From Ignavibacteriales bacterium (GTDB lineage: Bacteria > Bacteroidota > Ignavibacteria > Ignavibacteriales > Melioribacteraceae): a stretch of 35,225 nt of DNA. The notes below the pieces were generated by a model. The model had not been told where the DNA came from and did no database searches. It saw only the letters and a program-made list of their open reading frames with translations. The stretch covers positions 1-35,225 of the forward strand of contig JAFGPR010000020.1 in assembly GCA_016936095.1 (NCBI GenBank), written 5' to 3'. Below are positions 27,885-34,429 of this stretch, in pieces. A program made the position numbers and the translations under genes. Position 1 is the first letter of the stretch, and each line of letters starts with the position of its first letter.

Positions 27885-30290
27885 CTATTCACCTCTTAAT
27901 TTTGCATTAAATTTATTTTTTGTCTTTTCAATCATATCCCAAAAATATTTATCAACTTCTTCTTCTGTTAAAGTTTTTTCGCTATTCCAAAATTCTAATT
28001 GAAAAGCTAAACTTTTTACATCTTTACCTAAACTTTCACTTTCAAAAATATCAAATAACTTTATATTTTTCAATACATTTAGTGAATTTTTTAAAATAAA
28101 TTTCATTACATCAGAATTATCTGTTTTCTTATCAATAATAATAGCAAAATCTCTAATAACTTTCGGATATTTCAATAATTCCTGATATTTTTTAATAGGA
28201 AGTTCAATTTGCTTTAAAATATCAAGATTGAAGTCAAAAACATATACATCTTGTGTTATATCAAAATAATCTAAAATTTCCTTCTTGATTTTTCCACCTA
28301 TTCCAATTTTTTTGCCATTAAATTCTTTTTCAAAATAATATTCAAATAAATCATTCCCGTCTTTATAAAATTTTTCAATGCATTTAATATTGGTAAAAAA
28401 GAATTCCAAAGTTTGTTCTACAGATTCTTTCAGATCGTAGAAATCAAATTGTCTATCTTTCTCATACCATTCTGATTCTACTGCTTTTCCTGTTATTCCA
28501 ATCAATAATTTACTCTCTTCGATAAAATCAGAAAAATCTATTAATTTTCCATCTTTTATTCGATTGAAAATTTGACCGATTTCAAAAAACCTTAAATTCT
28601 TCTCCTGAACATTTAAATTCTTTTTAATTGTTATGAGCATACCAGGAATAAGAGAGGTCCGAACGGAAGCCATTTCATAACTTTTTGGATTTAATACATT
28701 TATCGCTGTTCCAAACTTATTTGCTGTTTCTTCTTTTTGCAATGAATTACTAACAATTTCAAAAAATCCAAGAGAAACCATAATATCGCGTAATTTATCA
28801 TCAAAAGTGTTCTGATATACTCTTTCTTCTAATGTAATTGAAATTTTGTTAACAGGTGGAATCTTGTCATATCCGTAAATACGTGCCACCTCTTCTATTA
28901 AATCTATCTCTCTTTCAATGTCAGGACGAAATGTAGGGACTTCAACTTCAATTTGCGAATTAACGTTTTTAAAAATATTGAATTGGAGATTTTTTAGAAT
29001 TTGTTGAATACTTTCTTTTGGAATTTCAAATCCTAAAATGCGAGTAATTCTATTAAATCTTAAAGATACTTTTCTGGGAATAATCTTTTTTGGATAAATA
29101 TCAATTGAATCTTTAGCTATCGTACCACCGGTTAATTCTCTCATTAGTTGTGCAGCCCGGTTGGCAGCATATGGTGCTATGCTCGGATCAACACCTCTTT
29201 CAAATCTATATGATGCATCTGTTGATAATCCCAATCTTTTAGAAGTCTTTCTTATCGCACTTGGATTAAAATATGCACTTTCAATAAGAATATTTTTTGT
29301 GTTGATTGTTACCTCAGAATTTTTACCACCCATAACACCAGCAACTGCAACAGAACACTTTCCATCACATATCATTAAATCGGTTGAGGTAATCTCACGT
29401 TCTTTATCATCAAGAGTGGTAAATTTTACTTTTTCTTTTTCATTTCTAACAATGATTTTTTTATTTGCTAAAAGATCTAAATCAAATGCATGTAATGGCT
29501 GTCCTGTTTCGTATAAAACAAAATTGGTGATATCAACAATATTGTTAATCGGTCTTAAGCCGACATTTAGCAATTTTTTCTTTAACCATTCAGGTGATTC
29601 ATTTATCCGAACATCTGTAACAACTTTTGCAAAATATCTGGGGCAGTCAATATAATTTAGAATTTCAACCGAAGCTAATTTATTTATATTGTTGTCTGAT
29701 TCAGTAAATTTAATTTCAGGTATTTTTAATTGCTTGTTGAATATTGCCGATAGATCTCTTGCTACACCTATATGGCTGAGTGCATCGGAACGATTAGGGG
29801 TTACGTTAATATCTAAAATCACATCATTTAAGCCAAGTTCATCTGACAAATTTTTTCCGACTTCTGCTCTTTCACTTAACACCATTATTCCATCGTGATT
29901 GTCACTTATTCCTAATTCTCTTTCAGAACAAATCATCCCTTCAGAAACTTCGCCACGAATTTTAACCTTCGCAATTTTGAAATTATTTTCAGGAATTGTA
30001 GCACCGATTTTTGCAAATGGAATTTTTTGGCCGGTATCAACATTTGGAGCACCACAAATAACATTGAAGACATTCTGTCCATCAGATACTTTGCATAAAG
30101 TCAATTTATCAGCATTTGGATGCATCTGCTTTTCTTTAACATATCCAACTACAATATTATTAAAAATTTTTCTTTGGTCAATTATTTCTTCTATTTCAAG
30201 ACCTGCAGAAGTTAATTTATCTGAAATTTCTGCAATTGTTGTACCAGATAAATCAATATAATCATTTAACCAGTTAAGAGAAATTTTCAA
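27885..30290 (-). CDS. pheT: Phenylalanyl-tRNA synthetase beta subunit
   Basis: PheT (801 residues, full length) forms the alpha2-beta2 synthetase with PheS. Domains in order are an N-terminal segment (MKISLNWLNDYIDL), the tRNA-binding OB-fold (about 40-150, VGYVKEKQMHPNADKLTLC), the B3/B4 editing region (about 210-390), B5 (about 405-475) and the catalytic-like core. The C-terminal FDX-ACB anticodon-binding domain (about 705-800) ends in KNKFNAKLRGE. The start is TTG at 30290 with GGAG 7 nt upstream, 32 bp after pheS. The coiled-coil gene follows without a gap. Confidence 0.98.
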   Translation of the reverse strand: MKISLNWLNDYIDLSGTTIAEISDKLTSAGLEIEEIIDQRKIFNNIVVGYVKEKQMHPNADKLTLCKVSDGQNVFNVICGAPNVDTGQKIPFAKIGATIPENNFKIAKVKIRGEVSEGMICSERELGISDNHDGIMVLSERAEVGKNLSDELGLNDVILDINVTPNRSDALSHIGVARDLSAIFNKQLKIPEIKFTESDNNINKLASVEILNYIDCPRYFAKVVTDVRINESPEWLKKKLLNVGLRPINNIVDITNFVLYETGQPLHAFDLDLLANKKIIVRNEKEKVKFTTLDDKEREITSTDLMICDGKCSVAVAGVMGGKNSEVTINTKNILIESAYFNPSAIRKTSKRLGLSTDASYRFERGVDPSIAPYAANRAAQLMRELTGGTIAKDSIDIYPKKIIPRKVSLRFNRITRILGFEIPKESIQQILKNLQFNIFKNVNSQIEVEVPTFRPDIEREIDLIEEVARIYGYDKIPPVNKISITLEERVYQNTFDDKLRDIMVSLGFFEIVSNSLQKEETANKFGTAINVLNPKSYEMASVRTSLIPGMLITIKKNLNVQEKNLRFFEIGQIFNRIKDGKLIDFSDFIEESKLLIGITGKAVESEWYEKDRQFDFYDLKESVEQTLEFFFTNIKCIEKFYKDGNDLFEYYFEKEFNGKKIGIGGKIKKEILDYFDITQDVYVFDFNLDILKQIELPIKKYQELLKYPKVIRDFAIIIDKKTDNSDVMKFILKNSLNVLKNIKLFDIFESESLGKDVKSLAFQLEFWNSEKTLTEEEVDKYFWDMIEKTKNKFNAKLRGE

Positions 30291-30322: not shown

Positions 30323-31321
30323 TTAAACTGAAATAAATTGTTTTAGAAATCTTAAATCATTATCAAAAAGTAGTCTAATATCATCAATTCCATATTTCAG
30401 TAAAGCCATTCTTTCCACGCCCATGCCAAATGCATAACCGACATATTTTTCTGGATCAATACCGACATTCATAAGTACATTCGGATCAACCATACCGCAA
30501 CCAAGAATTTCCAACCAACGACCTTCCTTACCTTGCTGTTGCCACCATATATCAACTTCAGCACTAGGTTCAGTAAAAGGGAAAAAACTCGCACGAAATC
30601 TGTATTTCACGTCCTTGCCATATAATTGTTGAGCAAAGGAGACAAGTGTTCCTTTTAATTCAGCAAAAGTAACATCAGTATCAACAAGCAATCCTTCAAC
30701 TTGGTGAAACAAGCAATAACTTTTTGCACTAAGTGATTCATTGCGGTAAACTTTACCAGGCATTATTGCTCGCAAGGGTGGTTTCTTTTCTTGCATTACT
30801 CTTATCTGAACAGGTGAAGTATGTGTCCTAAGTAAAAATTTTTCTGATACGAAAAATGTATCTTGCATATCTCGAGCGGGATGGTCATCAGGGAAATTAA
30901 GCGCTCCGAAATTATTGTAATCTGATTCTAGTTCAGGACCTTCGTAAATAGAAAAACCCAATCCTTTGAATATAGCTCTTACTTCATCAAGTGTCTGTGT
31001 GATGATATGTTTTGAACCGACAAAAGACTTTCTTCCGGGTAGTGAAAGATCAATATAAGAATCAGTAGAGTTAGAATTACTTAGAATCATTTCTTGCAGT
31101 TGATTGAATTTACCTGTTATCTCAATTTTAGCTTGATTTAGAGTTTTTCCTATAATTGGTTTATCGTTGCTTGTGATTTTTTTGAAATCATCAAATAATT
31201 GAGACAGAACACCTCTTCTTCCGAGGTATTTGATTCTGACATTTTCTAATTCAGCAGAAGAGTTAACTTTTTTAATCTCAGCGTTAAATTCGTTTAATGT
31301 TTTTTTAATTTCTTCTAGCAT
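30323..31321 (-). CDS. pheS: Phenylalanyl-tRNA synthetase alpha subunit
   Basis: PheS (332 residues) is the catalytic subunit. An N-terminal coiled-coil arm (about 1-90) precedes the class II core with FHQVEGLLVDTDVTF (motif 2 region) and GMGVERMALLKYGIDDIR (motif 3). I chose the ATG at 31321 over an in-frame TTG three codons earlier. No clear Shine-Dalgarno site precedes either. A long hairpin lies between it and rplT, so expression may be partly uncoupled from the ribosomal protein genes. Confidence 0.98.
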   Translation of the reverse strand: MLEEIKKTLNEFNAEIKKVNSSAELENVRIKYLGRRGVLSQLFDDFKKITSNDKPIIGKTLNQAKIEITGKFNQLQEMILSNSNSTDSYIDLSLPGRKSFVGSKHIITQTLDEVRAIFKGLGFSIYEGPELESDYNNFGALNFPDDHPARDMQDTFFVSEKFLLRTHTSPVQIRVMQEKKPPLRAIMPGKVYRNESLSAKSYCLFHQVEGLLVDTDVTFAELKGTLVSFAQQLYGKDVKYRFRASFFPFTEPSAEVDIWWQQQGKEGRWLEILGCGMVDPNVLMNVGIDPEKYVGYAFGMGVERMALLKYGIDDIRLLFDNDLRFLKQFISV

Positions 31322-31344
31322 AGTAAGCAAAAATATTTAAAATA

Positions 31345-31393: not shown

Positions 31394-31741
31394 TTAGTTA
31401 AAAGAGAATTTTACAATTTCTGCAAATGTATTTGGATTCTCAACCGCAAGACTAGCAAGAATTTTTCTGTTTATGTCAACACCTTTTTTAGTCATTGCAT
31501 CAACAAGTTTTGAATAAGTTGTACCATTCATTCTTGCTGCAGCATTTATTCTAACAATCCAAAGCCGTCTGAAATTTCTCTTATTTACTTTTCTGTCGCG
31601 ATAAGCGTGTTGCAAACCTTTTTCGACATGGTGTTTTGCAACAGTATATACTTTACTTCTCGCACCCCAATAACCTTTTGCAAGTCCGAGGATTTTTTTT
31701 CTTTTTTGTCTTGAAGCAACGTTATTCTTTGTTCTTGGCAT
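31394..31741 (-). CDS. rplT: 50S ribosomal protein L20
   Basis: L20 (115 residues, bL20) is an early 23S rRNA-binding protein of the large subunit and in E. coli represses its own operon. The basic N-terminal tail ([20 protein letters not shown]) and the globular part ([20 protein letters not shown]) match the family. AAGGAGG lies 6 nt before the ATG, the strongest Shine-Dalgarno site in this block. The order infC-rpmI-rplT is conserved across bacteria. Confidence 0.98.
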
Positions 31742-31753
31742 AGTAAACCTCCT

Positions 31754-31945
31754 TTACTGAAGCATAATTTTTACTCTTTTAATATCGGCATCTGATACAA
31801 GAGTTGATTTTCTTAAACTTCTAATTCTTTTTGATGATTTTTTTGTTAAAATGTGTAGCTTGTAAGCTTTACTCCTTTTAATTTTTCCAGAGCTAGTCTT
31901 CCTAAAAGTTTTTGCAGCTCCTCGATTACTTTTCATCTTTGGCAT
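31754..31945 (-). CDS. rpmI: 50S ribosomal protein L35
   Basis: L35 (63 residues, bL35) is a small basic large-subunit protein with the usual start [20 protein letters not shown] and [20 protein letters not shown] near the end. AAGGA lies 8 nt before the ATG. It sits 12 bp before rplT and 22 bp after infC, in the standard operon. Confidence 0.97.
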
Positions 31946-31967: not shown

Positions 31968-32489
31968 TTATTTTTTTATTTTTACTGGTGCAATTATTGC
32001 ACTCATTGCTCTTCCTTCAAATTTTATATCTTGTTCAATTTTTCCATTCTCACCAATTCCTTCAATAAACTTTTTGAGCAAATTTTCACCAACTTCTTTA
32101 TATGCAAGTTCCCGTCCTTTGAAAATTACTGCAACCTTTACTTTATTCCCTTCATCTAAAAAATTCAATGCATGCCTTAACTTAAACTCAAAATCATGAG
32201 TATCAGTATTTGGATGCAATCTAATTTCCTTAAGAACTATAACATGTTGTTTTTTCTTTTGTAATTTTTCTTTCTTCTGCAATTCATAAGCATATTTTCC
32301 AAAATTCATAATCTTACACACAGGCGGGTCAGCTTGTGGTGCAATTTCAATTAAATCTAAATTTTGTTCCTCTGCTTTTTTAATAGCTTCTTTTACCGAT
32401 AAAATTCCTAGCTGCTGGCCATCATGATTTATTACTCTTACTTGTGGAGCAGTTATCTCATAATTGATTCTTAATTCTTTCTTTGTAAT
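31968..32489 (-). CDS. infC: Translation initiation factor IF-3 (ATT start)
   Basis: IF-3 (173 residues) binds the 30S subunit, prevents early subunit joining and checks start codons. Reading from ATT at 32489 gives TKKELRINYEITAPQVRVIN, then LGILSVKEAIKKAEEQNLDL and IEIAPQADPPVCKIMNFGKY, which is the complete family N-terminal domain. AGAGG (32499-32495) lies 5 nt before the ATT, and an in-frame stop six codons further upstream excludes a longer form. No ATG, GTG or TTG gives a full protein: the first GTG (32321) is the Val of ADPPVCKI and would lose 56 residues. An ATT start allows IF-3 to repress its own synthesis, as known in E. coli. The ATT is 11 nt after the thrS stop. Confidence 0.96.
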   Translation of the reverse strand: MTKKELRINYEITAPQVRVINHDGQQLGILSVKEAIKKAEEQNLDLIEIAPQADPPVCKIMNFGKYAYELQKKEKLQKKKQHVIVLKEIRLHPNTDTHDFEFKLRHALNFLDEGNKVKVAVIFKGRELAYKEVGENLLKKFIEGIGENGKIEQDIKFEGRAMSAIIAPVKIKK

Positions 32490-32500
32490 AAATTCCTCTG

Positions 32501-34429
32501 CTAATTGTTAATGATTTTGTTGTTTATTTCATTTTTTAATTCTATTAAAAATTCATTTAACTTTTTACTGCCTAAATCACCGACTTTATGCTTCCTAACA
32601 GAAATCGCTTCATTTGATTTTTCCTTTTCACCGATAATTAACATATAAGGTATTTTTTGCATTTCCCAATCACGGATTTTATAACCAATTTTTTCATTTC
32701 TGTAATCAAGTTTGACTCTTATTTCCTCGTTATCCAATTTTTTCCTAATGGTTTCGCAATAATCAATTAAATTCTCTGACACAGGGATAATCACAACTTG
32801 TGTTGGTGCCATCCAAACAGGAAAATCACCAGCATAATGCTCAATAAGAACTCCCATAAATCTCTCAATTGAACCAAGTAAAGCTCGATGAACCATAAAT
32901 GGTCTATGCTCTTTACCATCTTCACCAGTATACTTCAAGTCAAATCTTTCGGGTAGATTGAAATCAAATTGGACAGTGCTCATTTGCCATTCACGATTCA
33001 AAGCGTCTTTAATTTTTATATCAATTTTAGGTCCGTAAAATGCACCACCGCCAGCATCAATTTTATATTTAATATTTTCTTTTCCTAAAGCATTTTTTAG
33101 TGATTCAATTGCTTTGTTCCATAAATCATCTTCCCCGACTGCATCCTCTGGTTTGGTCGCTAAATAAAATTCCATTTTTTCAAATCCTAACGAACGCCAT
33201 ATGTGTATACAAAATCGAATAACTTCAATTATCTCACTTTCAATTTGTTCCTTCGCACAGAAGATATGAGCATCGTCTTGAGTAAATCCTCTCACTCGTA
33301 ACAAACCATGAAGCACGCCGCTCTTTTCATATCTGTAGACTGTTCCTAACTCAGCCCAACGAATTGGTAAATCTTTGTATGAGTGCATACGTGATTTATA
33401 CATCATAATGTGAAATGGACAATTCATTGGTTTTATATAATAATCAATCTCATCAATTTTCATTGGTGAATACATATTCTCTTTATAGAATCCTAAATGT
33501 CCACTAATTTCCCAAAGATTTCCTTTACCGATATGTGGTGAATAAACTAAATCGTAACCATTCTTAAAATGCTCTTTTGTCCAAAAATCTTCTATAATGT
33601 GTCTTATCCTTGCACCATTAGGATGCCAATGAACTAAACCTGCTCCAACTTCGTCGTGAACTGTGAATAGATCTAATTGTTTCCCAAGTTTTCTATGGTC
33701 TCGTTTTTTTGCCTCTTCCAAAAAAGTAAGATAATCATCAAGCATTTTTTTCTTTGGAAAAGAGATGCCGTAAATTCTTTGCAAAGCTTTATTCTTTTCA
33801 TCGCCTCGCCAATAGGAACCTGATACAGTTAGAAGTTTTATGTTTTTTATTAACCCGGTATTAGGTAAATGAGGTCCAGTACATAAGTCAGTAAAATCAG
33901 CTTCTTCATAAATGCTAATCGTTGCATCTTCAGGAAGTTCGTTCAATATTTCAACTTTAAAATTATCATTCTTCGCTGTGAAAAAACTAATTGCTTCTGT
34001 CCGTGATAACTCTTTCCTTATAAACGGATGATTTGCTTCAGCAATTTCAGTCATTTTTTTTTCAATTTTTACTAAATCATCTTCAGATAATTTTGAATTT
34101 ATATCGAAGTCGTAGTAAAAACCATTTTCAATTGCTGGACCAACACCAAATTTTGCTTCAGGGTATAGAGATAAAAGTGCATGAGCCATTAAATGCGAAG
34201 TTGAATGCCAATAAACATCTTTTCCTTCTTTATCGTCGAAAGTCAATATCTTGACCTCCGAATTTTCAGAAATCGGTTTAGTTAAATCAAATACGATATT
34301 ATTCACTTTAACTGCAAGAGCATTTTTAGCTAAACCTTCGGAAATTGATTTGGCTATTTCTAAACCACTAACTCCTTGCGAAAATTCTTTTATTGTTCCG
34401 TCAGGTAATTTTATTTGTATTTTATCCAT
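32501..34429 (-). CDS. thrS: Threonyl-tRNA synthetase
   Basis: ThrS (642 residues, E. coli size) charges tRNA-Thr and edits Ser-tRNA-Thr. Order: TGS domain (1-62), editing domain (about 63-220, with HSTSHLMAHALL and CTGPHLP), class II catalytic core (about 240-535) and anticodon-binding domain (to 642). The core has the zinc ligand Cys in MNCPFHIMMYK, motif 2 RVRGFTQDDAHIFC and motif 3 HRALLGSIERF. No clear Shine-Dalgarno site precedes the ATG. A Bacteroidota-type promoter lies 60-91 bp upstream, making thrS the first gene of the block. I see no T-box. Confidence 0.98.
   Translation of the reverse strand: MDKIQIKLPDGTIKEFSQGVSGLEIAKSISEGLAKNALAVKVNNIVFDLTKPISENSEVKILTFDDKEGKDVYWHSTSHLMAHALLSLYPEAKFGVGPAIENGFYYDFDINSKLSEDDLVKIEKKMTEIAEANHPFIRKELSRTEAISFFTAKNDNFKVEILNELPEDATISIYEEADFTDLCTGPHLPNTGLIKNIKLLTVSGSYWRGDEKNKALQRIYGISFPKKKMLDDYLTFLEEAKKRDHRKLGKQLDLFTVHDEVGAGLVHWHPNGARIRHIIEDFWTKEHFKNGYDLVYSPHIGKGNLWEISGHLGFYKENMYSPMKIDEIDYYIKPMNCPFHIMMYKSRMHSYKDLPIRWAELGTVYRYEKSGVLHGLLRVRGFTQDDAHIFCAKEQIESEIIEVIRFCIHIWRSLGFEKMEFYLATKPEDAVGEDDLWNKAIESLKNALGKENIKYKIDAGGGAFYGPKIDIKIKDALNREWQMSTVQFDFNLPERFDLKYTGEDGKEHRPFMVHRALLGSIERFMGVLIEHYAGDFPVWMAPTQVVIIPVSENLIDYCETIRKKLDNEEIRVKLDYRNEKIGYKIRDWEMQKIPYMLIIGEKEKSNEAISVRKHKVGDLGSKKLNEFLIELKNEINNKIINN

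Follow-up and report, generated by a model that had tools for sequence, protein, structure and literature searches.

A very probable ATT start codon on infC in an Ignavibacteriales bacterium, and turnover of infC start codons among its relatives

Introduction

At which codon does translation of infC, the gene for translation initiation factor IF-3, begin when its reading frame holds no ATG, GTG or TTG ahead of a GTG that lies well inside the sequence for the first domain? The question is raised by a stretch of 35,225 nucleotides from an Ignavibacteriales bacterium (family Melioribacteraceae; contig JAFGPR010000020.1 of assembly GCA_016936095.1), which we analysed as a whole and refer to as the window. 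A preprint by Gvozdjak and Samanta from 2020, on genes that prefer non-AUG starts in bacteria, reportedly lists infC. The available text of published work gives the infC start as ATT in E. coli and ATC in Streptomyces, with autoregulation by IF3 (PMC5472188), as AUU in E. coli and B. subtilis (PMC1805508), as AUA in S. aureus, seen by ribosome profiling (PMC13009471), and as ATT in Xanthomonas, identified by peptides (PMC5559785). Among the literature matches listed, none links infC, Ignavibacteria and the start codon.

Results

The infC frame in the window extends upstream to an ATT codon

The window has a GC content of 31.3%, and its minus strand carries genes in the order thrS, infC, rpmI, rplT, pheS, pheT (Table 1). 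A sequence-only reading of this DNA had placed the beginning of the infC frame at an ATT preceded by AGAGG and a stop codon, with no standard start, and the sequence bears this out: between the TAA at 32510-32508 and the GTG at 32321 (residue 57) the frame contains no ATG, GTG or TTG, the ATT lies 56 codons upstream of that GTG, and the thrS stop codon, TAG at 32503-32501, lies 11 nt ahead of the ATT. The product from ATT comprises 173 aa and ends at the TAA at 31970-31968. The window genome (77.7% complete) yields a single infC match.

Table 1. Features of the infC region in the window
Feature	Position	Strand	Evidence
infC (translation initiation factor IF-3)	31968..32489	(-)	Pfam IF3_N and IF3_C; TIGR00168 residues 3-170
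ATT start codon of infC (very probable)	32487..32489	(-)	Shine-Dalgarno distance; homologous codon in relatives
Shine-Dalgarno AGAGG of infC	32495..32499	(-)	sequence; 5 nt before ATT
In-frame TAA closing the infC frame upstream	32508..32510	(-)	sequence
GTG, first standard start in the infC frame, internal	32319..32321	(-)	sequence, domains
thrS (threonyl-tRNA synthetase)	32501..34429	(-)	Pfam TGS, tRNA_SAD, tRNA-synt_2b, HGTP_anticodon; ORF
rpmI (L35), ATG start	31754..31945	(-)	reading frame; named by sequence and place
rplT (L20), ATG start	31394..31741	(-)	Pfam Ribosomal_L20
pheS and pheT, after rplT	30323-31330 and 27885-30290	(-)	

The same reading held that the 56 codons upstream of the GTG encode the complete IF-3 N-terminal domain, and domain searches agree. 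Counted from ATT, the Pfam domain IF3_N is matched over residues 8-75 with 109 bits; counted from the GTG, 19 residues of the domain are left and score 22.1 bits, under the cut-off of 26.9. The TIGR00168 score rises from 132.7 bits with the GTG start to 214.7 bits with the ATT start (cut-off 60), and IF3_C scores 108.8 bits, so that the protein, with both domains found, belongs to the IF3 (infC) family. Solved IF3 chains align with the window protein from residue 4, and 54 of 55 matches in relatives begin at residues 1-7; the one later-starting match (L167, unscored) comes from an infC gene divided between two contigs and covers its 3' half. Although the GTG is the first standard start codon of the frame, it is extremely improbable that translation begins there and yields a short IF3 lacking most of its N-terminal domain.

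The AGAGG ahead of the ATT can pair with a CCTCC that closes the 16S rRNA of G044, from the window's family, at its 3' end; this 16S 3' end, searched for and not found in the window genome itself, reads CCTCCTTTCT in G044 and in two genomes of family f2. Elsewhere in the same run, rplT has AAGGAGGT 6 nt before its ATG, counted from the last G of GGAGG, and the first start of pheT is a TTG with GGAG ahead. Among 35 window ORFs picked from the ORF list, the first start is TTG in 8 and GTG in 3, with a Shine-Dalgarno match at 5 of the 8 and 2 of the 3; TTG and GTG starts do occur, as had been said of this genome, but at 11 of 35 ORFs they are a minority rather than freely used. Because 19 of the 35 ORFs have no Shine-Dalgarno at the first start, the Shine-Dalgarno test is weaker in the window than in E. 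coli. A known RNA motif at infC was considered and rejected, an Rfam scan of the window having given no match at gathering score.

Relatives in the window's order keep an infC start outside ATG, GTG and TTG

We read the infC start in 88 genomes from three families of the window's order: 56 from f1, the window's own family (54 matches from 57 genomes searched, plus 2 added later), 5 from f16 and 27 from f17. These relatives are samples, drawn evenly by searches from the larger groups, and because of their common ancestry the 88 do not count as independent observations. The start is ATC in 70 and ATT in 16, together 86 of 88 (ATC/ATT 43/13 in f1, 4/1 in f16 and 23/2 in f17), and ATG is the called start in none, although relatives with ATG at this position had been named in advance as the outcome that would speak against an ATT start. 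The check proposed at the outset, whether ATT is conserved, shows conservation of the weakness of the codon but not of ATT itself, which ATC outnumbers; G034, the only other genome of the window's genus in the family search, also has ATT. Since ATC is so much the more frequent, the conserved trait, by comparison of these relatives, is a codon outside ATG, GTG and TTG rather than ATT.

Two calling rules were used. The first gave ATC or ATT in 55/56 f1, 5/5 f16 and 25/27 f17 genomes. Two genomes were entered as ATC after reading: L155, left uncalled by the first rule and called ATC by the second, has ATC 3 nt behind GGAGGT, and L145, called ATA by the second rule at a tie of two Shine-Dalgarno words, has ATC 5 nt behind GGAGG. 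The two genomes with neither codon, L194 and L195, come from one genus and have TTG-ATA with a distant AAGG. The stretch from the upstream stop to the IF3 core contains no ATG, GTG or TTG in 78 of 88 genomes and no ATG in 87 of 88; in L164 an ATG that directly abuts AGG stands 2 codons upstream of the ATC. Overlap between the Shine-Dalgarno and the stop codon of thrS, considered for many of the relatives, was dropped, thrS ending before it. In L079 a tRNA-Val gene (2859-2935) ends shortly before infC, at the place that thrS has in the window.

The distance from the end of thrS to the called infC start falls between 8 and 21 nt in 52 of 56 f1 genomes (of the remainder, 3 overlap by reading and 1 has no thrS match), which, with the 11-nt gap in the window, is the spacing expected if the weak start reflected translational coupling to thrS, by re-initiation, rather than control by IF3. 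Coupling requires no non-AUG codon, however: rpmI and rplT belong to this run of genes as well, and they start with ATG at all scored loci (127/127 and 84/84, scored among ATG, GTG and TTG only and where the locus reaches the gene, 79 of 206 loci ending short of rpmI and 122 short of rplT). Coupling as the explanation in place of IF3 control is quite unlikely; the two are compatible and can act together.

The conserved codon is distinguished from an ordinary isoleucine codon

If the conserved codon were an ordinary isoleucine codon, its usage should follow that of the gene bodies. In f1, ATC makes up 42 of 56 starts (second rule) vs. 13.1% of the isoleucine codons in the bodies of the same genes; in f16 and f17 combined it makes up 27 of the 30 starts called ATC or ATT vs. 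19.2%. ATA, which accounts for 26.9% (f1) and 34.3% (f16 and f17) of isoleucine codons, is absent from the hand-checked starts (0/56 in f1). With ATC enriched and ATA missing, an ordinary isoleucine codon at this position is rejected. Residue 2 is A, S, T, V, G or P in 85 of 85 sequences of the order, the pattern expected if a methionine ahead of it is removable; at residues 3-8, small residues occur in 7 to 37 of 85. The residue-2 argument is limited to the order, because outside it residue 2 is often Lys (35/80). Since the sequences are related by descent, the p-values computed for these comparisons overstate their independence.

To the 206 genomes of the class we applied a test of reading frame, in which the in-frame codons accepted were ATG and seven near-cognates. 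In 195 genomes a usable Shine-Dalgarno match (4 or more bases) lies upstream of the IF3 core, and the best such match is followed in frame by an accepted codon in 159 of 195, vs. 16/160 and 6/106 in the shifted frames, whose denominators are smaller owing to stops before the core. Chance origin of the signal is rejected by these frame controls, and sequencing or assembly error at the start is rejected because 86 of the 88 genomes read in the order concur.

The infC start codon turns over across the class

Over the 206 class genomes the second rule called ATC in 98, ATT in 45, ATA in 17, ACG in 13, TTG in 7, ATG in 3 and CTG in 1, and made no call in 22. The three ATG calls are all in f10, inside an N-terminal extension; some calls in f7, f15 and f34 fall within the IF3 core; and one ACG call, L289, is wrong. 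Resolved by family, the start is ATC or ATT in f3, f5, f8, f9, f12, f13, f32 and f36, as it is in f33, apart from one ATA, and in f6, apart from one ATA by eye, with 6 of 12 f6 genomes having no Shine-Dalgarno call. It is ATA in 4 and ATT in 1 in f11, ATA in 4 and CTG in 1 in f4, and ATA in f31, where one call was overruled by eye. In f14 the start is likely a conserved TTG, followed by Arg-Arg-Pro codons in 9/9 genomes by eye (L126, L250, L256, L260, L266, L283, L291, L300 and L302), of which the rule called TTG in 4. The start is unsure in f7, f10, f15, f34, f37 and f38, which have long N-terminal extensions or poor calls.

Two families showed further features. At seven f10 loci (L138, L139, L276, L319, L321, L323 and L324) the first of the standard starts, a TTG, lies 90-108 codons upstream of the IF3 core, giving a long N-terminal extension in which the true infC start is unsure; in the remaining three f10 genomes the open stretch is shorter. 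In f11, G075 and G158 carry a second, divergent infC-like copy (L166 and L329, kept out of the infC counts), which may be a paralogue, a mobile copy or a contaminant.

On a protein tree built without the start codon, at least 12 exchanges between ATC and ATT occurred within the window's order. The tree comes from a single FastTree run on an alignment of 174 columns, and 69 of its 201 inner branches are weak; all f14 genomes were set by eye to TTG and L289 to ATA, L155 already stood as ATC, L145 stood as ATA and so outside the ATC/ATT count, f7, f10, f15 and f34 were given no state on account of their long N-terminal extensions or poor calls, and L368 and L369 are absent. Beyond the class the rule of no in-frame ATG before the core fails: among 24 genomes of the phylum outside the class, such an ATG is present in 8, five of which (f23) have a conserved ATG-AAR-AAR. 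Taken over the class, the comparison makes it probable that an infC start rejected by IF3 has been kept for a very long time while the codon itself changed, including an order-wide change to ACG.

In another order of the class the apparent infC start is ACG

Family f2 was singled out by having no conserved ATH codon behind its GGAGG. An infC match was obtained in 11 of 12 f2 genomes (5 genera), and in every one of the 11 GGAGG is followed after 4 or 5 nt by ACG, as in the GGAGGT-CCC-ACG of L246, and the next codon is GCT, GGT, AGT or AAC. The order that contains f2 is represented by 16 genomes, of which 14, from 3 families and 7 genera, have an infC match (11 f2, 2 f35 and 1 f39; L111-L113, L240-L248, L368 and L369). 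A targeted search for ACG behind GGAGG found it at 4-5 nt in all 14, two of which are ambiguous, L246 having an in-frame ATG 5 codons upstream and L368 an ATT 2 codons downstream. The second rule, with its eight codons, chose ACG in 11/11 f2 genomes and in the single f35 genome to which it applied; in the other f35 genome and the f39 genome, ACG was seen in the sequences shown in full. The end of thrS lies 15-16 nt from the ACG in 10 of 11 f2 genomes and 35 nt in one, and 12 nt in f35.

Three further comparisons bear on the role of the ACG. First, between 10 and 16 codons separate the ACG from the IF3 core and the spacer varies too, with GGAGG and ACG constant; the varying distance to the core ties the ACG to the Shine-Dalgarno and not to a protein residue. 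Second, differences between ACG and core number 52, 50 and 102 at the first, second and third codon positions in seven genomes of equal length, the third being highest, with less clear counts in smaller sets (10/14/16 in three genomes, 1/0/1 in two). Third, the third base of the ACG is fixed in 14/14 genomes, yet this alone is modest evidence, since ACG already makes up 54% of threonine codons in f2 infC. In the f2 genomes rpmI and rplT each start with ATG (11/11 for both). The ACG requires one change on the tree, in which f35 is a long branch and f39 is absent.

Other starts were considered for this order and rejected: one further upstream, as a 1-nt difference in spacer length from genus to genus makes the upstream frames differ, and ATC or GTC one nt behind GGAGG, which occurs in L240 and L241 only. 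A dedicated initiator tRNA with a CGU anticodon was likewise rejected, ARAGORN having returned CAU tRNA-Met and one tRNA-Leu over a partial set of tRNAs (25 of 30 tRNA loci, with three further pattern matches in G057 having no locus). A CAU tRNA-Met of initiator pattern is present in 4/4 f2 genomes searched (G057, G067, G076 and G146); the pattern search did not find one in the f35 genome G185.

The likeliest explanation of this arrangement would be that the ordinary initiator tRNA initiates at the ACG, with GGAGG helping and IF3 acting as a brake; C-to-U editing of the ACG in the infC mRNA is a possible alternative. Read as initiation at ACG, the arrangement would give the whole order a native start codon, ACG, whose central position forms a C.A mismatch, and this would be unusual for bacteria. 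Among the literature matches listed, none reports an ACG start on infC.

Discussion

Our results indicate that infC in the window is, with high probability, translated from the ATT at 32489 under self-limitation by IF3, in a clade that keeps its start "not AUG". Ribosomes would be placed by the AGAGG just past the thrS stop, at an ATT, which mispairs with the initiator tRNA's CAU anticodon; because of this mismatch the 30S complex at the ATT would be dismantled by IF3 itself. Plentiful IF3 would then mean poor infC initiation and scarce IF3 more, a translational homeostat of the kind known from E. coli. That IF3 represses the ATT start in the window's organism we infer by analogy with E. coli and other bacteria. 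Selection in the clade would hold "not AUG" rather than any one codon: ATC and ATT are freely exchanged, and ATA, TTG or ACG occupies the start position in further families of the class.

A non-AUG codon could also do no more than fix infC expression at a low level, without feedback. In the available text of the S. aureus study, output from reporters of other genes is lowered by non-standard starts (PMC13009471). For infC, however, the product is itself the discriminating factor, and the available text of PMC5472188, citing E. coli work, presents this arrangement in E. coli as a feedback. We regard a fixed level without feedback as unlikely, and self-limitation by IF3 as the preferred reading.

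For the window, the ATT corrects an infC start that a gene search limited to ATG, GTG and TTG misses. For the clade, the part worth following is the turnover of the codon, above all in the ACG order: the clade constitutes a natural experiment in which the same feedback gene carries ATC, ATT, ATA, TTG and apparently ACG, and these natural variants allow tests of the mismatches that IF3 will tolerate and of the way in which a stronger or weaker Shine-Dalgarno makes up for them. The ACG start, if true, would add to the codons at which gene finders should let infC begin.

The infC start of the window very probably belongs to the known self-limiting infC starts, alongside AUU in E. coli, AUC in Streptomyces and AUA in S. 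aureus: its codon lies outside ATG, GTG and TTG, a weak codon is kept in relatives, and the Shine-Dalgarno agrees in distance and, judged on the 16S of G044, in its anti-Shine-Dalgarno. The likeness to the AUU start of E. coli, drawn from the sequence at the outset, is close, since E. coli shares the order thrS-infC-rpmI-rplT-pheS-pheT, the position of infC directly behind thrS and the ATT itself; it differs in that the window's relatives mostly have ATC and in that the feedback, known from E. coli, is a prediction for the window. With the infC genes of Streptomyces (ATC), S. aureus (AUA), and B. subtilis and Xanthomonas (AUU/ATT), as given in the available text on each, the window shares a non-AUG start, whereas the window's class swaps the codon inside families and has one order with ACG. 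Two other genes, as described in the available text on them, are also limited through a non-standard start, Streptomyces sigR, whose GTC start is limited by IF3 (PMC5472188), and E. coli pcnB, which is cited as having AUU (PMC13009471); they differ from infC in that neither is a case of IF3 regulating itself.
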